From Halalkaliarchaeum sp. AArc-CO (GTDB lineage Archaea > Halobacteriota > Halobacteria > Halobacteriales > Haloferacaceae): a stretch of DNA of 64,000 nucleotides. The DNA lies in NCBI RefSeq assembly GCF_024972735.1, contig NZ_CP087723.1:868001-932000 (forward strand), read 5' to 3'. Each line of letters opens with the position of its first letter. Position 1 is the stretch's first letter. This document shows positions 19,682 through 33,839 of this stretch, one piece after another. Under the pieces are notes generated by a model that saw only the letters and a program-made list of their open reading frames with translations, had not been told where the DNA came from and did no database searches. The position numbers were made by a program, and so were the translations under genes.

Positions 19682-21334
19682 ATGAGTGATAAATTGTCCC
19701 ATATCAAGGACCTGTCCCGGCGCGACGTAATGAAGTACGTCGGCGCGGGCGGGGCAGTCGGCTTGGCCGGCTGTCTCGGCGACGAACCGGCTGACGACAA
19801 CGGGGAAGACCCCGGCGAGAACGGCAACGGAACGGAACCGGGTGAGGAGCTTCCGGACCAGGAGCTGTATTTCGCACAGGTCAAAGGCCCTCTCGACCTC
19901 GATCCGATCGTCGCGAACGACGTTCCATCCGTCCAGATCATCGGGCAGCTATATGACGGGTTATACGAGTACGATCTCGGCGTGGGGATCGATCCGAAAA
20001 TCGCGAGCGATCAACCCACGGTCGAACGCGACGGAACTCGATTTATCGTTCCGATCCGCGACGACGCGGAGTTCCAGAACGGCGATCCGGTGACTGCCGA
20101 AGACGTCATCCACACGGTCCGGGCTCCCTACGAGGAGGAGACCGAAAACGCCGCGGAAGTCGATATGGTGGAAAGCGCGGAAGTCATCGACGAAACCACC
20201 GTCCAGTTCGACCTGGAGTTCCCGTATGGTGCCTTCGAAACGACGCTGGTGCGATACGTCGTAAACGAGAGTGTACGGACAGAGGATCGCGAGGCCTACA
20301 ACGTCGACCCCGTCGGCTCCGGACCGTTCCAGCTTGTCGACTGGGACCAGGAAGACTTCGCCACGGTCGAGCGCTGGGACGACTACTGGGACGGTGACCG
20401 GATCGGCTACCCAAATCTCGCACGTATCGAGTTCGATCCCATCGAGGAGCAGACGACCCGCGTCACCAGTCTCCAGACGGGCGACAACGACATCATCGAG
20501 ACGATCCCGCCGCAGTTGTACGAAACCGTTCGCGGCATCGAAGACGCCACGATCGACGAGGAGCCGGGGGTCGGATACTTCTACCTCGCGTTCAACTGTG
20601 GTGAAGGCCCGACTGCGGATCCGGTCGTCCGCGAGGCGGTCGACTACGTGTTCTCGATGGATCAGGCGATCGAGAACTTCGTCGAACCGGCCGGGGTTCG
20701 CCAGGTGAGTCCGTATCCGCTGTCGATTTCCGAGGAGTGGGACTTCCCGATCGACGAGTGGGGAGACATCGAACACGACCGGGACCTCGATGCGGCAGAG
20801 GACCTGTTCGAGCAAGCCGGCGTCGACTGGGATTACGACTGGCGGATCATCGTCCCGCCGGACGACATGCGCGAACAGATCGGCGTCTCGATCGGCGACG
20901 GCCTGCAGAACGTCGGTTTCGACAACGTCGAAGTGCAGCGTCTCGACTGGGGGACGTTCACCGAGGCGTACCAGAGCGGCGACGAGGACGACTTCAACAT
21001 GTACACCCTCGGCTGGTCCGGCAGTCCGGACCCCGACGCGTTCGCGTACCATTTGCTGTCCCAGGAAGTCGAAGGTGTCACCAACGGAACGTTCCACGAC
21101 TACGACGAGGCCTCCGACAAGATCACAGAGGCCCGGCGGTCGGCCGACCGCGAGGAACGCCGCCAGCTGTACATCGAGGCGACGACCGAACTCCTCGAGG
21201 AACGCGTCCACCTACCGGCGTACAACCTGCAAAACTCCTACGGCATCAGCGGACGCGTCGACGACTATCACGCGCACCCGATCTCCAGCGTCACCCGGGT
21301 GTTCAGCGAGCACAACAACGTCTCGGTCGAGTGA
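19682..21334 (+). CDS. Peptide/oligosaccharide ABC transporter substrate-binding lipoprotein (SBP family 5)
   Basis: 550 residues. A Tat signal with lipobox (RR at 13-14 in SRRDVMKYVGAGGAVGLAG, then Cys31) marks it as a lipid-anchored extracellular protein, followed by an acidic flexible linker. The body has the family-5 layout: FAQVKGPLDLDPIVANDVPS, YDGLYEYD, FRNGD-like FQNGDPVTAEDV, and DPVGSGPFQLVDWDQ. Substrates of the family are di/oligopeptides, but haloarchaeal members also take sugars, so specificity is open. First gene of a five-gene operon (19682-25997). Confidence 0.93.
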   Translation: MSDKLSHIKDLSRRDVMKYVGAGGAVGLAGCLGDEPADDNGEDPGENGNGTEPGEELPDQELYFAQVKGPLDLDPIVANDVPSVQIIGQLYDGLYEYDLGVGIDPKIASDQPTVERDGTRFIVPIRDDAEFQNGDPVTAEDVIHTVRAPYEEETENAAEVDMVESAEVIDETTVQFDLEFPYGAFETTLVRYVVNESVRTEDREAYNVDPVGSGPFQLVDWDQEDFATVERWDDYWDGDRIGYPNLARIEFDPIEEQTTRVTSLQTGDNDIIETIPPQLYETVRGIEDATIDEEPGVGYFYLAFNCGEGPTADPVVREAVDYVFSMDQAIENFVEPAGVRQVSPYPLSISEEWDFPIDEWGDIEHDRDLDAAEDLFEQAGVDWDYDWRIIVPPDDMREQIGVSIGDGLQNVGFDNVEVQRLDWGTFTEAYQSGDEDDFNMYTLGWSGSPDPDAFAYHLLSQEVEGVTNGTFHDYDEASDKITEARRSADREERRQLYIEATTELLEERVHLPAYNLQNSYGISGRVDDYHAHPISSVTRVFSEHNNVSVE

Positions 21335-21442
21335 TGTAACGGCCGGGGCTTCCCGAAGAGTATTTAGCCTTGCGTTTGCGAGGTTTTCCAAGTTGCGACT
21401 GCGAGTACGAGCCATGACCTCAGTTCACACCGGTGATCTTCC

Positions 21443-22438
21443 GTGAGCCTGCTGCGTTACACGATCTGGCGGTTCGCGCAGGCGGTCCCTGTGTTGATCG
21501 GAATCATCACGATAACGTTCTTCCTGGCGAACCAGATTCCGGGTGATCCGATCTCGATCATGCTTGGGCCGTCACCCGCCCAGGAACGCGTCGAGCTCAT
21601 CCAGGCCAAATACGGGCTGGATCGGCCGCTCCACGAACGCTATCTCACGTACCTTCAGGGCGTGATGATGGGCGATCTGGGATACAGTCTCTACTACGAT
21701 CGTCCGGTCCTCGAGATGATCATGCTTCGCCTGCCCGTGACGCTGTACCTCACGATCTCGGCGTTCGCGTTCGCGATCGCCACGGCGATCCCGCTGGGGG
21801 TCATCTCGGCGAAGCGGCGGAACAAGCCCACCGATCACGTCGCTCGGATCGTCTCGCTGATCGGCGTGTCGACGCCGTCGTTCTGGATCGGCCTGATGTT
21901 GATCATCGTCTTCGCGTTCCACCTCGGGTGGTTCCCGGCACGCGGCCTCCCATTGCCGTGGGAGGCGCCCGGGGACGTGAGGGGAGCCGAGACGCAGATC
22001 GACGTGATCACGACGTCGCTGTATCACCTGATCATGCCGATGATCGCGCTGGGGACGCTCCAGATGGCCCAGATCACGCGCATCGAGCGGTCGTCGATGG
22101 TCGAATCGCTGCAGGGCGAGTACGTCAAACTCGCCCGGGCCTACGGCGTCTCCGAGACGACGATCGTCCGGAAACACGCGTTCCAGGTCGCACAGCTTCC
22201 CGTGATCACGATCGTCGGGCTCGGCCTCTCGACGGCGCTCGGTGGCTCGGTGCTGATCGAGACCGTCTTCGAGATCCAGGGGATGGGCCGGCTGATCATT
22301 ACGGCGATCAACAACCTGGATTACGAGCTCATCATGGGCACGACGTTCATGTTCGGGTTCGCGTTCGTGATCGGCGTCATCATCACTGACATCGCGTACG
22401 CGTACATCGACCCGCGGGTTACCTACGGTGACGAATAA
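21443..22438 (+). CDS. ABC transporter permease (DppB/OppB type)
   Basis: 331 residues, six predicted membrane helices. Family N-terminus LLRYTIWRFAQAVPVLIGII, then GLDRPLHERYLTYLQGVMMG and DLGYSL. The cytoplasmic coupling loop is EYVKLARAYGVSETTIVRKH (EAA motif), followed by GGSVLIETVFEIQGMGRLI. Forms the membrane channel with the next gene. A gene gap of about 108 nt after the binding protein contains no other frame. The stop falls in a 17-bp triplicated junction with the next gene. Confidence 0.95.
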   Translation: MSLLRYTIWRFAQAVPVLIGIITITFFLANQIPGDPISIMLGPSPAQERVELIQAKYGLDRPLHERYLTYLQGVMMGDLGYSLYYDRPVLEMIMLRLPVTLYLTISAFAFAIATAIPLGVISAKRRNKPTDHVARIVSLIGVSTPSFWIGLMLIIVFAFHLGWFPARGLPLPWEAPGDVRGAETQIDVITTSLYHLIMPMIALGTLQMAQITRIERSSMVESLQGEYVKLARAYGVSETTIVRKHAFQVAQLPVITIVGLGLSTALGGSVLIETVFEIQGMGRLIITAINNLDYELIMGTTFMFGFAFVIGVIITDIAYAYIDPRVTYGDE

Positions 22439-22477
22439 TGGAGGGGGACGAATAATGGAGGGTGACGACTGATGGCA
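22427..22477 (+). repeat. 17-bp triplicated junction between the two permease genes
   Basis: Three consecutive copies: GGTGACGAATAATGGAG (22427-22443), GGGGACGAATAATGGAG (22444-22460) and GGTGACGACTGATGGCA (22461-22477). The first contains the upstream stop codon, the second supplies a GGAGG ribosome-binding site, and the third holds the downstream ATG (22472). Confidence 0.85.
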
Positions 22478-23458
22478 ACTGGAACCGAATCTCAAACCGA
22501 CGAGTTCTCCCCCGGGGAGGACTCCGAGGGCGGCGTCGGCGAAGTCGAAGCTCGCGTCGGCCTCAAATACACGCTCAAACAGGTCAAACGCGACACGACC
22601 GCCCGAATCGGCATCTTCGTGGTCGGCTTCGTCACGATCGTTGCGCTCTACGCTTCGATCGACTACTTCGTCTTCGATTACGCGATCGCCGATTCCGTCT
22701 GGTACCACCCCGCCCGCGACCCCGACGAGGTAAACCGACTGTTGCCGCCGCTCGGTATGGAAAACCAGTTCGGCGAGGGGGTGCTCGAACATCCGATGGG
22801 AACCGACCACCGGGGGCGGGACATCCTCATTCGGCTCATCTACGGCACCCGGATTGCGATCACGGTCGGCTTCATGGCCACCGCGATCGGGCTGGTCGGC
22901 GGGACGCTCATCGGGGCGGTGTCGGGCTACTACGGCGGCTGGGTCGACGACATCCTCCAGCGGGTCACGGAGACGATCTACGCCATCCCGTTCCTGGTGC
23001 TCGTGATCGCGTTCATGGTCGCGTTCGGCCGCAACCTGACGTTCGCGATGGTCGGCGTCGGGATCACCGCGATCCCGATCTTCAACCGGCTCATTCGGTC
23101 GCGGGTCGTCTCGATCCGCGAGGAGGACTACATCGAGGCCGCGAGAGCGGCGGGGGTAAAGGATCGCAACATCATCCTCAGACACATCATTCCCAACAGC
23201 TTCGCGCCGGTGCTGGTGCAAGCGACGCTCCAGATCGGGGTGAGTATCTTGATCGTCGCCGGCCTGTCGTTCCTCGGGTTCGGCGCGCAGCCGCCGACCC
23301 CGTCGTGGGGACAGATGCTCTCGGAGTCGCGCCACTACATGCTGCCGGCGCCCACGTTCAGTCTCTGGCCGGGGCTGGCGATTCTGATCACGGTGATCGG
23401 ATTCAACATCCTCGGCGACGGTCTGCAGGACGCGCTGGATCCACGAATCAACAACTGA
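22472..23458 (+). CDS. ABC transporter permease (DppC/OppC type)
   Basis: 328 residues, about six helices. A cytoplasmic acidic N-terminus (residues 1-30) is longer than in bacterial DppC. Family features: HPMGTDHRGRDILIRLIYGT (about 108-127), GGTLIGAVSGYYGGWVDDIL, and the EAA loop DYIEAARAAGVKDRNIILRH. Ends NILGDGLQDALDPRINN, the usual C-terminus. A ribosome-binding site GGAGGG lies 9-10 nt upstream of ATG 22472. Confidence 0.95.
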   Translation: MATGTESQTDEFSPGEDSEGGVGEVEARVGLKYTLKQVKRDTTARIGIFVVGFVTIVALYASIDYFVFDYAIADSVWYHPARDPDEVNRLLPPLGMENQFGEGVLEHPMGTDHRGRDILIRLIYGTRIAITVGFMATAIGLVGGTLIGAVSGYYGGWVDDILQRVTETIYAIPFLVLVIAFMVAFGRNLTFAMVGVGITAIPIFNRLIRSRVVSIREEDYIEAARAAGVKDRNIILRHIIPNSFAPVLVQATLQIGVSILIVAGLSFLGFGAQPPTPSWGQMLSESRHYMLPAPTFSLWPGLAILITVIGFNILGDGLQDALDPRINN

Positions 23459-23467
23459 GATCGATAT

Positions 23468-24592
23468 ATGTCCGAACCACTACTCAGCGTCGAAAACCTC
23501 AAGACCCAGTTTTTCACCGAAGAAGGAACCGTTCGGGCGGTCGACGGCATCTCCTTTGACGTCCACGAGGGGGAGATCGTCGGACTCGTGGGGGAGTCGG
23601 GCGCGGGCAAAAGCGTCGCGACCTCCAGTCTCCTCAGGCTCGTCGAGAGCCCCGGAGAGATCGTCGACGGCGAGGTCACGTTCAAGGGCCGGACGCTGAT
23701 CGGCTTCGAGGAGGGCCCCGACGGCGAGCTCAGTCCCCGCGATGAGATGCTCTCGAACGAACAGATGCGCAAGGAGATCCGGGGCCGGGAGATCGCGATC
23801 ATCTTCCAGGACCCAATGGAGTCGTTGAACCCGGTGTTCACCGTCGGCGGGCAGCTTCGCGAGTTCATCGAGCTGAACCGGGATCTCGACAAAAAAGCGG
23901 CCAAACAGGAGGCCATCGACATGCTCCGGGAGGTGGGCATTCCCGATCCGGTGGCCCGATACGACGAGTATCCACACCAGTTCTCCGGGGGGATGCGCCA
24001 GCGCGTACTGATCGCGATGGCGCTCGCCTGCCAGCCGGACCTGATCATCGCCGACGAGCCGACGACCGCACTCGACGTCACGGTCGAGGGGCAGATCCTG
24101 GATCTCGTCGAGGACCTCCAGGAGAAGTACAGCACCGCGTTCATCTGGGTAACCCACGACATGAGCGTCATCGCCGAGATCGCCGACCGCGTGAACGTGA
24201 TGTATCTCGGCGAGATCATCGAACAGGCGGACGTCGACGAGATGTTCTACGAGACGATGCACCCGTACACGGTGGCGCTTTTGAACTCGATGCCCCGCCC
24301 GGACGAGACCGTCGACGAGCTCGACCCCATCAAGGGCGTGATGCCGGAGGCGATCAATCCGCCGTCCGGCTGTCGGTTCCACCCGCGCTGTCCGGAAGCC
24401 CGCGAGGTGTGTACGGAGGTGCATCCCGAACCGCGGGACCTCGGAGCGTCGGCCGAGCGTCACAACGTCGCCTGCGTGAAGTACGACGCCTTCGACGTCG
24501 GGTACGAGGAGAGCCGACCACTGAACACGGAGGCAACCGGCGGGTTCAGCGCCGGCTTTGCCGGCCGACAGGAGGGCGAGGCCAATGAGTGA
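23468..24592 (+). CDS. ABC transporter ATP-binding protein (DppD/OppD type)
   Basis: 374 residues. Walker [12 protein letters not shown]-loop [12 protein letters not shown], signature FSGGMRQRV, Walker [13 protein letters not shown] and H-loop WVTHDMS. The oligopeptide/dipeptide C-terminal region has the iron-sulphur-type cysteines of the family ([15 protein letters not shown], later NVACVKYD). Ten nt after the permease stop. Its own stop overlaps the next start (ATGAGTGA), so translation is probably coupled. Confidence 0.96.
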
Positions 24593-25997
24593 CGCCGACG
24601 CCGGCTTCGACTTCGAGGACGATTCCCTGTCGACGCCCGGCGTCGACAGGGAAGTCGACGAGGGCGAGCCGCTGGTCAGGGTCGAGGGCCTGAAGAAATA
24701 CTTCAGCGACACCGACAGCCTGTTCGGGAACGTCACCGTCGACGACGAGTTCCCGTACCTCCGACGTGAGGATCGACAGGTGAAAGCCGTCGACGACGTC
24801 TCCTTCGACATCAAGAAAGGCGAGACGCTGGGGCTGGTCGGCGAGTCGGGCTGCGGGAAGTCGACGCTCGCCCGGACGGTGTTGCGCCTGTTGAAACCCA
24901 CGGACGGTAGCGTCTACTTCAAAGGTGAGGACCTGGCGACGCTGTCGGGGGAGCCGCTCCGGACGCGGCGCAAGGAGATGCAGATGATCTTCCAGGACCC
25001 CCAGTCGTCGCTCGACCCCCGGATGAAGGTCGGGCCGATCGTCGAGGAGCCGATGAAGGCCCACGGGATGCTCGACGAGGAGGGACGGGAAGCCCGCGCG
25101 AGGGAGCTGCTCGAGAAAGTCGGTCTCGATCCCCAGCACTACAACCGCTATCCGCACGCCTTTTCCGGGGGCCAGCGCCAGCGGGTCAACCTCGCGCGGG
25201 CGCTGTCGGTGAACCCGGACTTCATCGTCTGTGACGAGCCCGTCTCCGCGCTGGACGTCTCGATCCAGGCGCAGGTGCTCAACACGATGGAGCAGCTCCA
25301 GGAGGAGTTCGACCTCACGTACCTGTTCATCGCCCACGACCTTTCTGTCATCCGGTACATATCGGATCGAGTCGCGGTGATGTATCTCGGGAAGCTCGTG
25401 GAACTGGCGGACAAAGAGGAGCTGTACGAGAACCCACAACACCCGTACACGAAGGCGCTGCTCGACTCGATTCCGGTGCCGGATCCGCGGTCGGAGGGCA
25501 AGCGCGGAGTGTTGAAAGGCGACGTGCCGTCGCCACTGGATCCGCCGTCGGGCTGTCGGTTCCGGACCCGGTGTCCGAAGCTGATCCAGCCCGACGGATT
25601 CGACATGTCGGACGGCGAGTGGGAGGACGTCCGGGAGTTCACGCGGGCAGTAGACCGGCGAACCTTCGACGTCACCGACGGCTCCCGGATCCGGGAGGAG
25701 TACTTCGAGGACGGCGTGCCGGACGGCGACGCCGGCGGAATCGTCGAGGAGGCGTTCCAGCATCTCTCGGCGGAAGAGTGGGTGGAGGCCGGGACGCTTC
25801 TCATCGACTCCTTTGCCGAGCAGAGCATCTGTGCCCGCGAGGAGCCGGCCTACGAGGTCGAAACGGAGTACGGCACGTCGCGTCACTACGCCGCGTGTCA
25901 CCTCCATCAGGAGGACGGAACGGACGTCAGCGACGAGGTTCTGGGTGGCTCAGCCGAGGAAGATACCGGCGTTGGAATCCTCGGTTCTGACGACTGA
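24585..25997 (+). CDS. ABC transporter ATP-binding protein (DppF/OppF type)
   Basis: 470 residues, unusually long for the family. Walker [13 protein letters not shown]-loop [12 protein letters not shown], signature FSGGQRQRV, Walker [14 protein letters not shown]-loop FIAHDLSVI. The OPT C-terminal cluster is split: [11 protein letters not shown], then an insertion of about 100 acidic residues, then [11 protein letters not shown] and HYAACHLH. Start at 24585 overlaps the DppD stop; GGAGGG lies 9 nt upstream. Last gene of the operon; partner of the preceding ATPase. Confidence 0.95.
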
Positions 25998-27342: not shown

Positions 27343-28098
27343 TCAGATAAACGCCCGGGTAACGGCGACGTACTGGATCGCGAACAAGACCGCGTTGTAC
27401 AGTCCGTGTGCGAGGCCCGGGACAACGATGTTGCCCGTCCGCTCGTACAGGTAGCCGAGGACGATTCCGAGCACGGTAGCGACTACTGCGTACACGAGTT
27501 GTTGTCCGATCGTTCCCTGGACGGCCCACACGTGAACGAGGCCGAAAAACGCCGCCGCCAGTACGATCGCGGGCCATGCGGACACCGCCCGCCGGAGCAG
27601 CCCTTGCACCACTCCGCGGAACAGTAGCTCCTCGACTGGGCCGACCACGAGGATCGACACCAGGATCATGTACAGGAAGAACTGCGGGTTCTCCCTTCCG
27701 ATGAGGACCACCTGGTTTTCACCCGCCTCGAGCCCGAACTCCGAAAGAACGAACCCGAAGGCGAACTGGACGATCAGCAACACGACGATGCCGACGCCGA
27801 TCAGTCCCCAGCCGAACCGCGTCGGGAGACGATACGAAATCAGTTCCCGATCGTCGGTGATCGCGACGTAGCCGACGATCCCGACGCCGAATCCCACGAA
27901 CTGCAACACCGTCAACGCGAGGTGGTAGCCGATCGTCTCCGGTTCGACGATCCCGCCGGAAATCAGGACACCGATCCCCCCGCCCGCGACCGCGACCGCA
28001 CCCGCGAACGCGGCCAACACGACGGCGACAGCCTGCGTGAGCCGGTAGAGTGCGGGGCCGAACGTCCCGACACCTTCGGACTCGGGCGATTCGCTCAT
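27343..28098 (-). CDS. CPBP-family intramembrane glutamic/metalloprotease
   Basis: 251 residues, seven or eight hydrophobic helices. The CPBP (Rce1-like) motifs are all present: VEELLFRG (Glu156-Glu157, Arg161), FFGLVHVW (His189) and GLAHGLYNA near the C-terminus. Homologues process prenylated proteins or bacteriocin-type peptides; in haloarchaea the substrate is unknown. No peptide-precursor gene sits beside it. It starts 55 nt from the end of pgi on the same strand. Confidence 0.92.
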   Translation of the reverse strand: MSESPESEGVGTFGPALYRLTQAVAVVLAAFAGAVAVAGGGIGVLISGGIVEPETIGYHLALTVLQFVGFGVGIVGYVAITDDRELISYRLPTRFGWGLIGVGIVVLLIVQFAFGFVLSEFGLEAGENQVVLIGRENPQFFLYMILVSILVVGPVEELLFRGVVQGLLRRAVSAWPAIVLAAAFFGLVHVWAVQGTIGQQLVYAVVATVLGIVLGYLYERTGNIVVPGLAHGLYNAVLFAIQYVAVTRAFI

Positions 28099-29858: not shown

Positions 29859-30836
29859 ATGATCGAGGTCGCGGGGTTGCACAAGACGTACGCCGGCTTT
29901 CCGGCGGTCGTCGACGCCACTTTCGAAGTCGAACCCGGCGAAGTGTTCGGAATCGTCGGCCCGAACGGCGCGGGAAAGACGACGACGTTGAAGATGCTCG
30001 CCGGGCTGGTGGAACCGACTGCGGGGACGGCGACGGTTGCCGGATACGACGCCGCGGATCCGGCGATGCGCAGGCTGCTCGGCTATCTTCCCGAGGAGTC
30101 GCCGCTGTACGAGGACATGACGCCCCGCTCGTATCTCCGGTTCTTCGCGGATCTATACGGCGTCGAACGGGGGGTCGCCGACGAACGGATCGCCGATTCG
30201 CTCGACCGGCTCGAACTGGAGTACCGGGATCGCCGCATCGGCGACATGTCGAAGGGGATGAAACGGAAGGTGGCGATCACCCGGTCGCTCGTCAACGACC
30301 CGGACGTTCTCCTGTACGACGAACCCGCCTCGGGGCTGGATCCGCTCACCACGAACTACGTCCTCGAGTTCACCCGAGATCTCAGGGATCGCGGGAAGAC
30401 GGTCGTTTTCTCGGCTCACAACCTGTATCACGTCGAGTCGGTGTGTGACCGGGTGGTCATCATGAACGAAGGGGAGATCGTCGCCAGGGGAACCGTCCCC
30501 GAGATTCGCGCCGAACACGGAGAGACCCGATATTACGTGTTCACCGACGTGCCGGTCGAGGGGGCCGAACCCGTCGCCGGTGGTGCGGCCGACGGTGCCG
30601 AACCGATCGACCGGTGGGAAATCGACCAGGGTACTGCTGGGGAATCGGAACGGACGAACCGACGGTTCCGGGTGGTCTGTGCGGACATGGACGGCGTCGA
30701 GTCGGTTCGCAAGCGGGCAGCAGACGCGGGTGGTTCGGTGCTGGACATCAGAACACGGGAGTCCAGCCTCGAGGACGTCTTCCTCGAACTGGCCGATCGA
30801 TCCGTCGACGGAGAGCGCGCGGGGGCGGCGAAGTGA
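29859..30836 (+). CDS. ABC-2 type transporter ATP-binding protein
   Basis: 325 residues. Walker A GPNGAGKTTT, Q-loop LGYLPEESPLYEDMT, signature MSKGMKRKV, Walker B LLYDEPASGLDP, H-loop FSAHNLYHV, the layout of NatA/CcmA-like ABC-2 exporters. A C-terminal extension of about 80 residues (from TDVPVEGAEP on) is acidic and ends with the usual ABC-2 tail SLEDVFLELADRS. A TATA-like AATTATAAGT at about 29823-29832 precedes it. Its stop overlaps the GTG start of the next gene, so the three genes to 33839 form one operon. Confidence 0.94.
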   Translation: MIEVAGLHKTYAGFPAVVDATFEVEPGEVFGIVGPNGAGKTTTLKMLAGLVEPTAGTATVAGYDAADPAMRRLLGYLPEESPLYEDMTPRSYLRFFADLYGVERGVADERIADSLDRLELEYRDRRIGDMSKGMKRKVAITRSLVNDPDVLLYDEPASGLDPLTTNYVLEFTRDLRDRGKTVVFSAHNLYHVESVCDRVVIMNEGEIVARGTVPEIRAEHGETRYYVFTDVPVEGAEPVAGGAADGAEPIDRWEIDQGTAGESERTNRRFRVVCADMDGVESVRKRAADAGGSVLDIRTRESSLEDVFLELADRSVDGERAGAAK

Positions 30837-32779
30837 GCCGGGAGAACGGAGCAGACACCGGCGAGCGAACTGCCGCAGCCGGGAGGGACGGTCCCGGACG
30901 CCTCGCTGCAGTCTGCCGGATCGCCCGCTGGGAGCTCTCGACCGCGACGGGAGCGGTGGATCGACGGACCGTCGTGGTCGGCGTTCTGGCGATCCTTCTG
31001 GTCGGTGGAGTCGTCGGCGCTGCGGTACTTTCGGGGGTCGGCGGAGTGACCCCGGACGGTGACATCTACCGGGTCGCCGTCGACGAGGACGACCCGTACG
31101 CACCGGTTGTCGAGTCCGACGACAGGCTCGCGGTACGCCCGCCGGACGCGACCCTCGGGGTCGAGGCCGATGTCCACGTGGAGAGTCACGTTCCGTCGAC
31201 CGACGAGGGGGCGGCAGACGACATCGCGGTCGACGGCTGGGTGAGCGTCACCGCCGTCGAGACTGAAAAGGGGGCGGCCGCCGCCCAGACGCTTCGTGCC
31301 GCCACCGAGTCGTACAACGACCGCCTGATGGCAGCCGAATCGAACCAGTCTGCGGCGTTCCCGGTCGACGTGACGCTCCGGTATGAACCGCGTGGCGGAT
31401 TCGAACCTGCAGGCGACGATCCGACCGACGATTCGATCGACGATCCCGACGACGTGGCGACAGACCACGACGCCCTCGAGGGTGACGAGGAGCCGTCCGA
31501 CGCCGAACGCGAGGGTGACGATCCCACGCTTCCAGCGGGTGACGCCGACGCCGACGACGGGGGGCTCGCAGTGCCCCAGCTCGGCGGCTCCGGCGGACTG
31601 TTCGGGGGCTCGACGGCCGGTTCACCCGCCGAAATCACTCCTCCGTTCCCCTTCTCGTCGTTGATCCTCGCGTTCCTGTTTCTGATCCCGATGAACTTCC
31701 TCGTCCAGGCGTACGGGAGTTCGATACTCGGCGAACGAGTGAACCGGCGCGGGGAGCTACTGCTGGTCGCGCCCGTAGAGCCGCTTTCCATCGTGGCGGG
31801 CAAGACGCTCCCGTATCTCGCCGGCGCGATCGGCGTCACTGCACTCATCGCGCTGTTCGTCGGTGGGGGGATCGTTTCGGTGCTCGCGATCGTCCCCGTC
31901 GCGCTCGCGTTCCTGGCTGCGACGTTCCTGGGGGCGCTTTTCGCCAGGTCGTTCAAGGAGCTCACGTTCGTCACCGTCACCGTCTCGGTGTTTTTCACGA
32001 CGTACGTCTTCGTCCCGGCCATCTTCATCAACGTCACGCCGATCGCGCTGATCTCCCCGCTTTCGCTTGTCGTGCTCGACCTCCAGGGAGAGGCGGTCGG
32101 GGTCGGCGAGTACCTGTTCGCGACCGGCCCGCTGTATCTCGTCTCGGCGGTCTGCTTCTGGCTCGGGGCCGGCGTCTACCGCGAGGAGGACCTGTTCTCC
32201 CAGAAGCCGCTGCCGGCGAAGGCGCTCGACGCCCTCGCCGTCCGCGTGTCCGGGCCGCGGTCGGTGGCCCTCCTGACTGCCGTCTTCATCCCGTTCGTCT
32301 TCGTCGCCGAACTGCTCGCGGTGGCGGTGCTTTTCGCGCTTCCCATCGCCGTGTCGATTCCCCTGCTGCTTGTCGTAATCGCGCTGATCGAAGAGGTCGC
32401 AAAGAGCGTCCACGTGTACGCCGGCTTCGTCGACGACCGCCTGGAAGTGTCGGTTCCGTCGGCACTCGCGGTCGGGGCGGCCTCGGGGATCGGGTTCTTC
32501 CTGGCGGAGAAAGGCACCGTCGTGGTTCAGCTGGTGGGACTCCCCGAGCTCTCACTCGGCCGGGCGGCGTTCGGCCCCGCTGGTGTGGCCGGAACCGGGC
32601 AGCTCCCCTGGACGGTCCTGCTCGCGTTACTTCTGGCGCCGCTCGGGTTACACGTCGTCACCGCCGTCATCTCCGCGCTCGGAGCACACCGAAACCGACG
32701 GCTGTACGCGGTCGCACTCGCGATCGCGACGCTCGTTCACGCCGGATACAACTTCGGGGTGGTGACCTTCTATGCGTGA
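30833..32779 (+). CDS. ABC-2 permease fused to a PrsW-like intramembrane protease domain
   Basis: 648 residues from the GTG at 30833, which overlaps the ATPase stop (AAGTGAG). N-terminal helix and a large external domain (about 65-240, with an acidic Asp/Glu linker), then ABC-2 membrane helices (about 265-430; ILGERVNRRGELLLVAPVEP). The C-terminal part (about 480-648) has PrsW-type (M82) hallmarks: LIEEVAKSVHVYAGF (about 518), GFFLAEKG, LHVVTAVISALG and VHAGYNFGVV. PrsW proteases cut membrane regulators; ABC-2 proteins export. The fusion suggests proteolysis tied to export. ABC-2 assignment is firm; protease activity is inferred from motifs. Confidence 0.8.
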   Translation: MSRENGADTGERTAAAGRDGPGRLAAVCRIARWELSTATGAVDRRTVVVGVLAILLVGGVVGAAVLSGVGGVTPDGDIYRVAVDEDDPYAPVVESDDRLAVRPPDATLGVEADVHVESHVPSTDEGAADDIAVDGWVSVTAVETEKGAAAAQTLRAATESYNDRLMAAESNQSAAFPVDVTLRYEPRGGFEPAGDDPTDDSIDDPDDVATDHDALEGDEEPSDAEREGDDPTLPAGDADADDGGLAVPQLGGSGGLFGGSTAGSPAEITPPFPFSSLILAFLFLIPMNFLVQAYGSSILGERVNRRGELLLVAPVEPLSIVAGKTLPYLAGAIGVTALIALFVGGGIVSVLAIVPVALAFLAATFLGALFARSFKELTFVTVTVSVFFTTYVFVPAIFINVTPIALISPLSLVVLDLQGEAVGVGEYLFATGPLYLVSAVCFWLGAGVYREEDLFSQKPLPAKALDALAVRVSGPRSVALLTAVFIPFVFVAELLAVAVLFALPIAVSIPLLLVVIALIEEVAKSVHVYAGFVDDRLEVSVPSALAVGAASGIGFFLAEKGTVVVQLVGLPELSLGRAAFGPAGVAGTGQLPWTVLLALLLAPLGLHVVTAVISALGAHRNRRLYAVALAIATLVHAGYNFGVVTFYA

Positions 32780-33839
32780 CCGAGACTCCGGGACGGAGCC
32801 CTCGCCACGTCTGCGGATCGCCGGCCGGGAGCTTTCGGTGCTCCGCAGGGAGAAGACGATCGTGCTGGCGCTCGTGATCCAGCTTTTCATCGCGGCGTTC
32901 TCCTCGTTTCTGGTCGTCGGGCTGGTGTCGCTGTACGATCCCTCTAGCCTCGACGGCTACGAGGTCGAGGTGGCGGTTTCCGGCGAGACGGTCGACGAGC
33001 TCGTCGCCGCCGCCGATCGGGTCGACGGAGTCTCCGCGACGCGATACGACGACTGGGAGACGGCCCGAGGAACCTTCGACGCGGGGGCGGCAGACGCCGC
33101 CGTCAGGGGCGAACGCCGGGACGGGAGAATCGAGGTGACCGCCGTCGCCCCCGACGGCAGCGTCGAGTCGACGGTGGTCGTCGCCCAGCTGCAGCAGGCG
33201 CTTCGCGCGCTCGAACGCGACGAACGCGGGCGAAACGCCGCGTGGCTCGACAGCCGGCCGCTTCCGCTTCCGGAGCGACCGGGCGGCAGTCCATACTACG
33301 GGTTCACCTACACGGTGCTGGTGCCGATCCTGCTGTTCCTGCCGGTGTTTATCAGCGGCTCGCTGATCGTCGACTCAGTCACCGAGGAACTCGATCGGGG
33401 GACGCTCGAACTGCTTCGAGTCGCGCCGGTGACGACCGCAGAGATCGTCGACGGCAAGAGCCTCGCCGCCGTCGGGCTCGCGCCTGCACAGGCGGCGCTG
33501 TGGCTCCTGCTGCTCTGGCTGAACGGGGTTCCGGTCGCCAATCCCGGCACGCTTTTGCTCCTCGTTGCGGCGTTTGCGACGGCGGTGGTGACGATGGGGA
33601 TCGCGATCGCGACCCTCGCGCCGCGTCGACGGGACGCACAGTTCCTCTACTCTGTTGGGGTCCTCGCGCTGTTTGCGGGGTCGACGCTGCTTCCCGGCAA
33701 TCCGATCAACGCCGCCGCTCTGCTCGCGGTCGGCAGCGCGACGGCGACCACGACCGCTACAGTCGTTGTCTACGCGACCCTCGCGGCGGCGGGCTATCTC
33801 GCGGTGCGAACAGCGATCGCCCGGCACGGCTTCGAGTGA
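32772..33839 (+). CDS. ABC-2 type permease
   Basis: 355 residues. One N-terminal helix (IVLALVIQLFIAAFSSFLVV), an external domain of about 120 residues (EVEVAVSGETVDELVAAADR), then five or six helices including VLVPILLFLPVFISGSLIVD, and the ABC-2 core ELDRGTLELLRVAPVTTAEI with VDGKSLA. Overlaps the preceding gene by 8 nt (ATGCGTGA), so the two permeases are probably made together and pair with the ATPase at 29859. Substrate unknown; NatB-like sodium efflux or export of a lipid/peptide are options. Confidence 0.88.
   Translation: MRDRDSGTEPSPRLRIAGRELSVLRREKTIVLALVIQLFIAAFSSFLVVGLVSLYDPSSLDGYEVEVAVSGETVDELVAAADRVDGVSATRYDDWETARGTFDAGAADAAVRGERRDGRIEVTAVAPDGSVESTVVVAQLQQALRALERDERGRNAAWLDSRPLPLPERPGGSPYYGFTYTVLVPILLFLPVFISGSLIVDSVTEELDRGTLELLRVAPVTTAEIVDGKSLAAVGLAPAQAALWLLLLWLNGVPVANPGTLLLLVAAFATAVVTMGIAIATLAPRRRDAQFLYSVGVLALFAGSTLLPGNPINAAALLAVGSATATTTATVVVYATLAAAGYLAVRTAIARHGFE

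Follow-up and report, generated by a model that had tools for sequence, protein, structure and literature searches.

A PrsW-type intramembrane protease domain predicted at the C-terminus of an archaeal ABC-2 permease subunit

Positions 29859-33839 of the 64,000-nucleotide stretch analysed here (the window), from Halalkaliarchaeum sp. AArc-CO (contig NZ_CP087723.1, positions 868,001 to 932,000), hold three tightly overlapping genes, all on the + strand, that encode an ATP-binding cassette (ABC) ATPase, a fusion protein and a second permease. The fusion protein (30833..32779, +, 648 aa) joins an ABC-2 permease half to a C-terminal domain whose assignment to the PrsW type of intramembrane protease is supported by its motifs, by the PF13367 scores of its orthologues, by a profile match and by a fold of the APH-1/Rce1 class. 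We hold the case to be evenly poised for the following reading: ATPase, permease A (the fusion) and permease B would assemble into a heteromeric ABC-2 exporter, and an active glutamic intramembrane protease of the PrsW type, built into permease A, would feed it. A reading made from the letters alone, without database searches (the sequence-only reading), had claimed a three-gene operon whose second gene combines an ABC-2 membrane part with PrsW motifs. The gene calls, the common strand and the overlaps of 4 and 8 bases bear out the operon, and the motifs (EEVAK 520-524, F555..E559, H607 and H636xxYN) lie where that reading had placed them.

Selective constraint on these motifs is, as judged from alignments, the strongest computational argument for an active protease. 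In the EEVAK motif (32390..32404, +), which lies in helix 505-533, E520, E521 and K524 are unchanged in 30/30 and 47/47 sequences of two alignments, the first of Halobacteriales orthologues and the second phylum-wide, spanning 16 families of Halobacteriota and including classes beyond Halobacteria. In the phylum-wide set, the FFLAEK motif (32495..32512, +) keeps E559 and K560 in 47/47 and F555 in 46/47, with Tyr once; H607 (32651..32653, +), in the penultimate helix 593-620, is kept in 47/47, as is H636 of H636-A-G-Y-N640 (32738..32752, +), an HxxxN motif in the last helix 622-647 whose N640 position is Asn or Asp. All seven motif residues (E520, E521, K524, F555, E559, H607 and H636) are identical in 30/30 of the Halobacteriales orthologues. 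Across the 174 residues of the domain, the 47 sequences have no invariant columns other than E520, E521, K524, E559, K560, P603, H607 and H636, and 6 of these 8 coincide with the seven motif columns set beforehand (hypergeometric p = 5e-9, a value that ignores relatedness and is a guide only). Identity across the domain drops to 24-36% in this set while the catalytic residues stay fixed. Since the motifs are complete in 30/30 Halobacteriales sequences and 6 of the 7 columns are invariant in 47 diverged ones, they are not there by chance. The motifs are retained at each of the 80 GTDB loci examined; a single one, L086, fell outside a test of motif spacing, owing to an insertion between two motifs.

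The motif layout is the signature described for PrsW, which pairs EExxK with HxxxD on the final helix and places a second His on the fifth (PMC4602095). With the PrsW family (MEROPS M82, PF13367) the domain shares EExxK, FxxxE, the penultimate-helix His, the last-helix HxxxN/D, a profile match and the superfamily fold. When PF13367 was run over 60 related genomes, 20 fusion loci scored above the curated cut-off in the C-terminal region (23.5-33.2 bits, covering about 11-176 of the 196 profile positions) and 2 fell just below it. By hmmscan with speed filters (E<=1), the same profile is seen in 3/63 full-length and 8/21 domain sequences, and the family therefore sits near the limit of single-sequence detection. 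A profile of 29 fusion domains, compared by hhalign with one of 20 canonical PrsW proteins from haloarchaea, gave a probability of 96% (E 4.6e-9), and a wider fusion profile gave 93% (E 3.1e-7). The aligned pairs (fusion/canonical) are EE..K/EE..K, F...EK/F...EN, middle His/middle His and HxxYN/HxxYN, so that the invariant Lys after E559 is a feature of the fusion, whereas canonical haloarchaeal PrsW has Asn there. The outcome that would have refuted the sequence-only reading, profile matches to ABC-2 or unknown helices only, with unconserved motifs, is not what was found: the window protein alone matches only ABC-2, but orthologues pass PF13367 and the motifs are conserved. Membership of the CPBP/Rce1 family (PF02517) was considered and rejected, as the motif is EExxK, not EExxxR, and hhalign of the same two fusion profiles with CPBP proteins, the window's own CPBP gene among them, gave probabilities of 0.7% and 1.3%. 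By hmmscan, PF02517 weakly matched 1/21 domain sequences (E 0.81).

Modelled alone with AlphaFold2, the domain (residues 475-648; 32255..32776, +) has five predicted transmembrane helices and a predicted local distance difference test score (pLDDT) of 88.9. VIA-align places it closest to APH-1 of gamma-secretase (Z 10.8, 4.6 A, 161 residues), with Rce1 (4cad) at Z 4.8; among helical bundles, Z values of about 10 count as a hint, not as proof. The second-best matches after APH-1 are chains of the multipass translocon/BOS complex (7tm3_6 and 9c7u_C, Z ~10), hinting at a fold common to the protease domain and a eukaryotic translocon subunit. To our knowledge, neither APH-1 nor the 7tm3/9c7u chains are proteases. 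Foldseek alone gave nothing significant, and a sequence search of the PDB returned no relative. Because remote homology among APH-1, PrsW and CPBP is established (PMC6588880, PMC4602095), the fold result is consistent with the sequence result.

The permease half (residues ~23-454; 30899..32194, +) is, as modelled, an ABC-2 fold. In an AlphaFold2 model built from 63 haloarchaeal sequences, most of each membrane part of the fusion has a pLDDT above 90, and residues 23-469 align with ABCA1 (VIA-align Z 16.1, 3.8 A, 229 residues) and NosY (Z 14.9). First transmembrane helices are followed by an extracytoplasmic domain (~70-185), a disordered acidic linker (186-268) and the remaining transmembrane helices. 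The sole Pfam match of the window protein is to PF12698 (ABC2_membrane_3) at 26.1 bits, below the cut-off of 31.6; PF12698 is matched by 46/63 family members (hmmscan, E<=1). The components by which an ABC-2 exporter is recognized, an ABC-2 permease fold, a cognate ATPase and a second permease, are found together in one operon. The DrrA/NatA-like ATPase (29859..30836, +, 325 aa; PF00005 102 bits) has its Walker A (GPNGAGKT at 34), signature (MSKG at 130), Walker B (VLLYDEP at 150) and H-loop (SAH at 185) all intact. The fusion gene starts with GTG, overlapping the ATPase stop, and is followed by the second ABC-2 permease (32772..33839, +, 355 aa; PF12698 72.4 bits). A TATA-like ttataag stands ~30 bases 5' of the first ATG, a position that would fit a leaderless haloarchaeal transcript as read from the letters.

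Distribution was surveyed across the phylum Halobacteriota. The fusion occurs in 42/60 genomes of the order sample and in 148/295 Halobacteriota genomes; it is a phylum-wide trait and not a local oddity. In GTDB r220, 271 stretches encode relatives. Haloferax species with the operon include H. mucosum (L092), H. larsenii (L082) and H. marinum (L067). Carriers include methanogens, and methyl-coenzyme M reductase is present in 19/40 of the non-haloarchaeal carriers read in detail. In the gene tree of the fusion, families group together and Halobacteria form a single clade; as read from this tree, the fusion was probably ancestral to Halobacteriota and descended mostly vertically. The ATPase is adjacent to the fusion in 78/80 haloarchaeal loci, and the next gene downstream of the fusion is the second permease in 79/80 of these and in 39-40/40 of the other loci. 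Outside Halobacteria (L142-L181), the ATPase gene is mostly divergent from the fusion, being upstream of it on the other strand in 34/40; gene order has been rearranged there with the fusion itself intact. Since the second permease is constant while ATPase orientation varies across lineages, fusion and second permease are the oldest fixed unit. A tblastn search of plasmids gave matches in Haladaptatus only. A Halorussus salinisoli genome carries the fusion twice, at L088 and at L079 (SZNP01000001.1), and beside the L079 copy neither an ATPase nor a second permease was detected. Elsewhere in the genome of the window lies a stand-alone PrsW gene of canonical type (G000:C2:2211430-2212023, PF13367 145 bits). 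The sole annotated public record that was opened, Haladaptatus WP_227356692.1, is named 'ABC transporter permease subunit', a name that hides the protease and that the PrsW assignment corrects.

Several known systems combine a protease with an ABC transporter. Bacterial fusions of ABC permeases with CPBP proteases, which the sequence-only reading had mentioned, are indeed on record as NCBIfam NF041647. They resemble the present fusion in carrying a C-terminal intramembrane glutamic protease on one permease chain and differ in that the protease here is of the PrsW type, not CPBP. The NF041647 cut-off (435 bits, full-length) was passed in 0/197 Halobacteriota genomes, and no NCBIfam model, NF041647 included, matched the window fusion protein (E<=1). 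From its sequence, the PrsW-ABC fusion may be regarded as a further variant beside the known CPBP-ABC fusions. Peptidase-containing ABC transporters of the C39 type likewise unite protease and exporter in one chain; in them, an ABC exporter of another type bears a soluble Cys protease at its N-terminus. Eep/RasP and EcsAB/PptAB of Firmicutes resemble the fusion in placing an intramembrane protease and an ABC exporter on one peptide pathway (PMC7157817, PMC2996298), although these are separate proteins with an S2P-type metalloprotease, whereas the fusion is one chain of glutamic type. Other fusions of PrsW, to toxins, PilZ and DUF2324, have been described, and the word permease is absent from the available part of that text (PMC3482391). 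Haloferax HVO_0408 is likewise a haloarchaeal PrsW; the paper on it describes a PrsW-like protease and mentions no ABC transporter (PMC9263693). We found no description of a PrsW-ABC fusion in the openly accessible literature, which is weak evidence, most subscription papers lying outside the search.

In the exporter proposed here, the protease core of E520/E521, H607, H636 and E559 would cut a membrane-embedded substrate, for which a signal-peptide remnant, a lipoprotein or sorting-tag stub and a small membrane peptide are candidates. The freed hydrophobic fragment would move sideways into the neighbouring ABC-2 cavity, the covalent link between protease and permease holding it at the pump, and ATP hydrolysis would extrude it, as disposal or as a secreted peptide. 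The division of labour between Eep/RasP and EcsAB/PptAB would thereby be brought within one polypeptide. Eep and EcsAB are both needed to process lipoprotein leaders and secrete linear peptides (PMC7157817), and loss of Ecs blocks intramembrane proteolysis by RasP, which has been explained by a 'cleaning function' (PMC2996298). We infer that cleavage may be coupled to export; the constancy of the catalytic residues and the example of Eep and EcsAB speak in favour of this. A broader picture, in which a phylum-wide archaeal 'cut and export' machine inherited from the Halobacteriota ancestor would cleave transmembrane peptides and secrete peptides, possibly signals, through its own ABC-2 pore, all in one polypeptide, is tentative and somewhat doubtful. 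Bacterial intramembrane proteases and ABC exporters cooperate on peptides as separate proteins, and the covalent archaeal fusion makes such coupling directly testable. The fusion further raises the possibility that archaea, whose peptide export pathways are in our judgement poorly known, secrete peptides.

Several observations weigh against a protease that feeds an exporter. The window fusion protein itself has no PF13367 match in a Pfam scan, members of this divergent family lying near or below that cut-off. The fused domain, joined as it is to an ABC-2 permease, has five predicted transmembrane helices versus the roughly eight of most PrsW members (PMC3482391); because the catalytic core is nevertheless complete, we call the domain PrsW-type and not a typical PrsW member. 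The AlphaFold2 model is a monomer, in which contact between protease and transport path would not show, and the permease fold would also suit exporters of lipids or drugs. The fusion is missing from about half of the sampled phylum genomes and is thus not a core function. Finally, no conserved fourth gene that could supply a substrate was found at the haloarchaeal or the other loci. The largest neighbour cluster (22 haloarchaeal loci) was set aside, looking by eye like an antisense frame of an ABC ATPase gene.

Some of these points recur in an alternative that we judge unlikely, that of a regulatory protease acting on the transporter or a partner, for instance by clearing the transporter's own subunits, a sensor or an anti-regulator, with a pump that exports something else, such as a lipid, ion or drug. 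The permease fold is closest to lipid and efflux ABC proteins, PrsW of B. subtilis cleaves an anti-sigma factor (PMC4602095), and a peptide gene is conserved neither at the haloarchaeal nor at the other loci. A regulator gene is likewise not conserved near the operon, however, and regulation alone need not preserve a covalent fusion phylum-wide. The nearest solved folds, APH-1 and the 7tm3/9c7u chains, speak for a non-catalytic scaffold that, like APH-1 in gamma-secretase, would stabilise the transporter or receive lipids. This is improbable, as a scaffold would not be expected to retain both Glu and both His, and the EE..K/E/H/H set is invariant in 47/47 while the domain diverges to ~25-35% identity. 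Least probable is pure membrane housekeeping, the removal of leftover signal peptides or transmembrane stubs with no secreted messenger, which the 'cleaning function' proposed for Ecs (PMC2996298) and a broad but patchy distribution without a partner gene would suit, but which is indistinguishable by sequence from the protease-fed exporter and amounts to its housekeeping form.

Two neighbours of the operon complete the picture of the window. The sequence-only reading had drawn attention to a CPBP protease gene before the operon. A stand-alone CPBP/Rce1-like gene (27343-28098, -; PF02517 79 bits) does lie 1.76 kb upstream; it is on the opposite strand, with a phosphoglucose isomerase-like gene in between, and as an operon partner it was rejected, 0/80 relatives having one within 5 kb. 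The nearby CPBP gene is incidental to the operon. Some 3.9 kb before the exporter operon, an Opp/Dpp-type peptide importer operon (19682-25997, +) comprises genes for a binding protein, two permeases and two ATPases; export and Opp import side by side is the layout of Firmicute peptide signalling.

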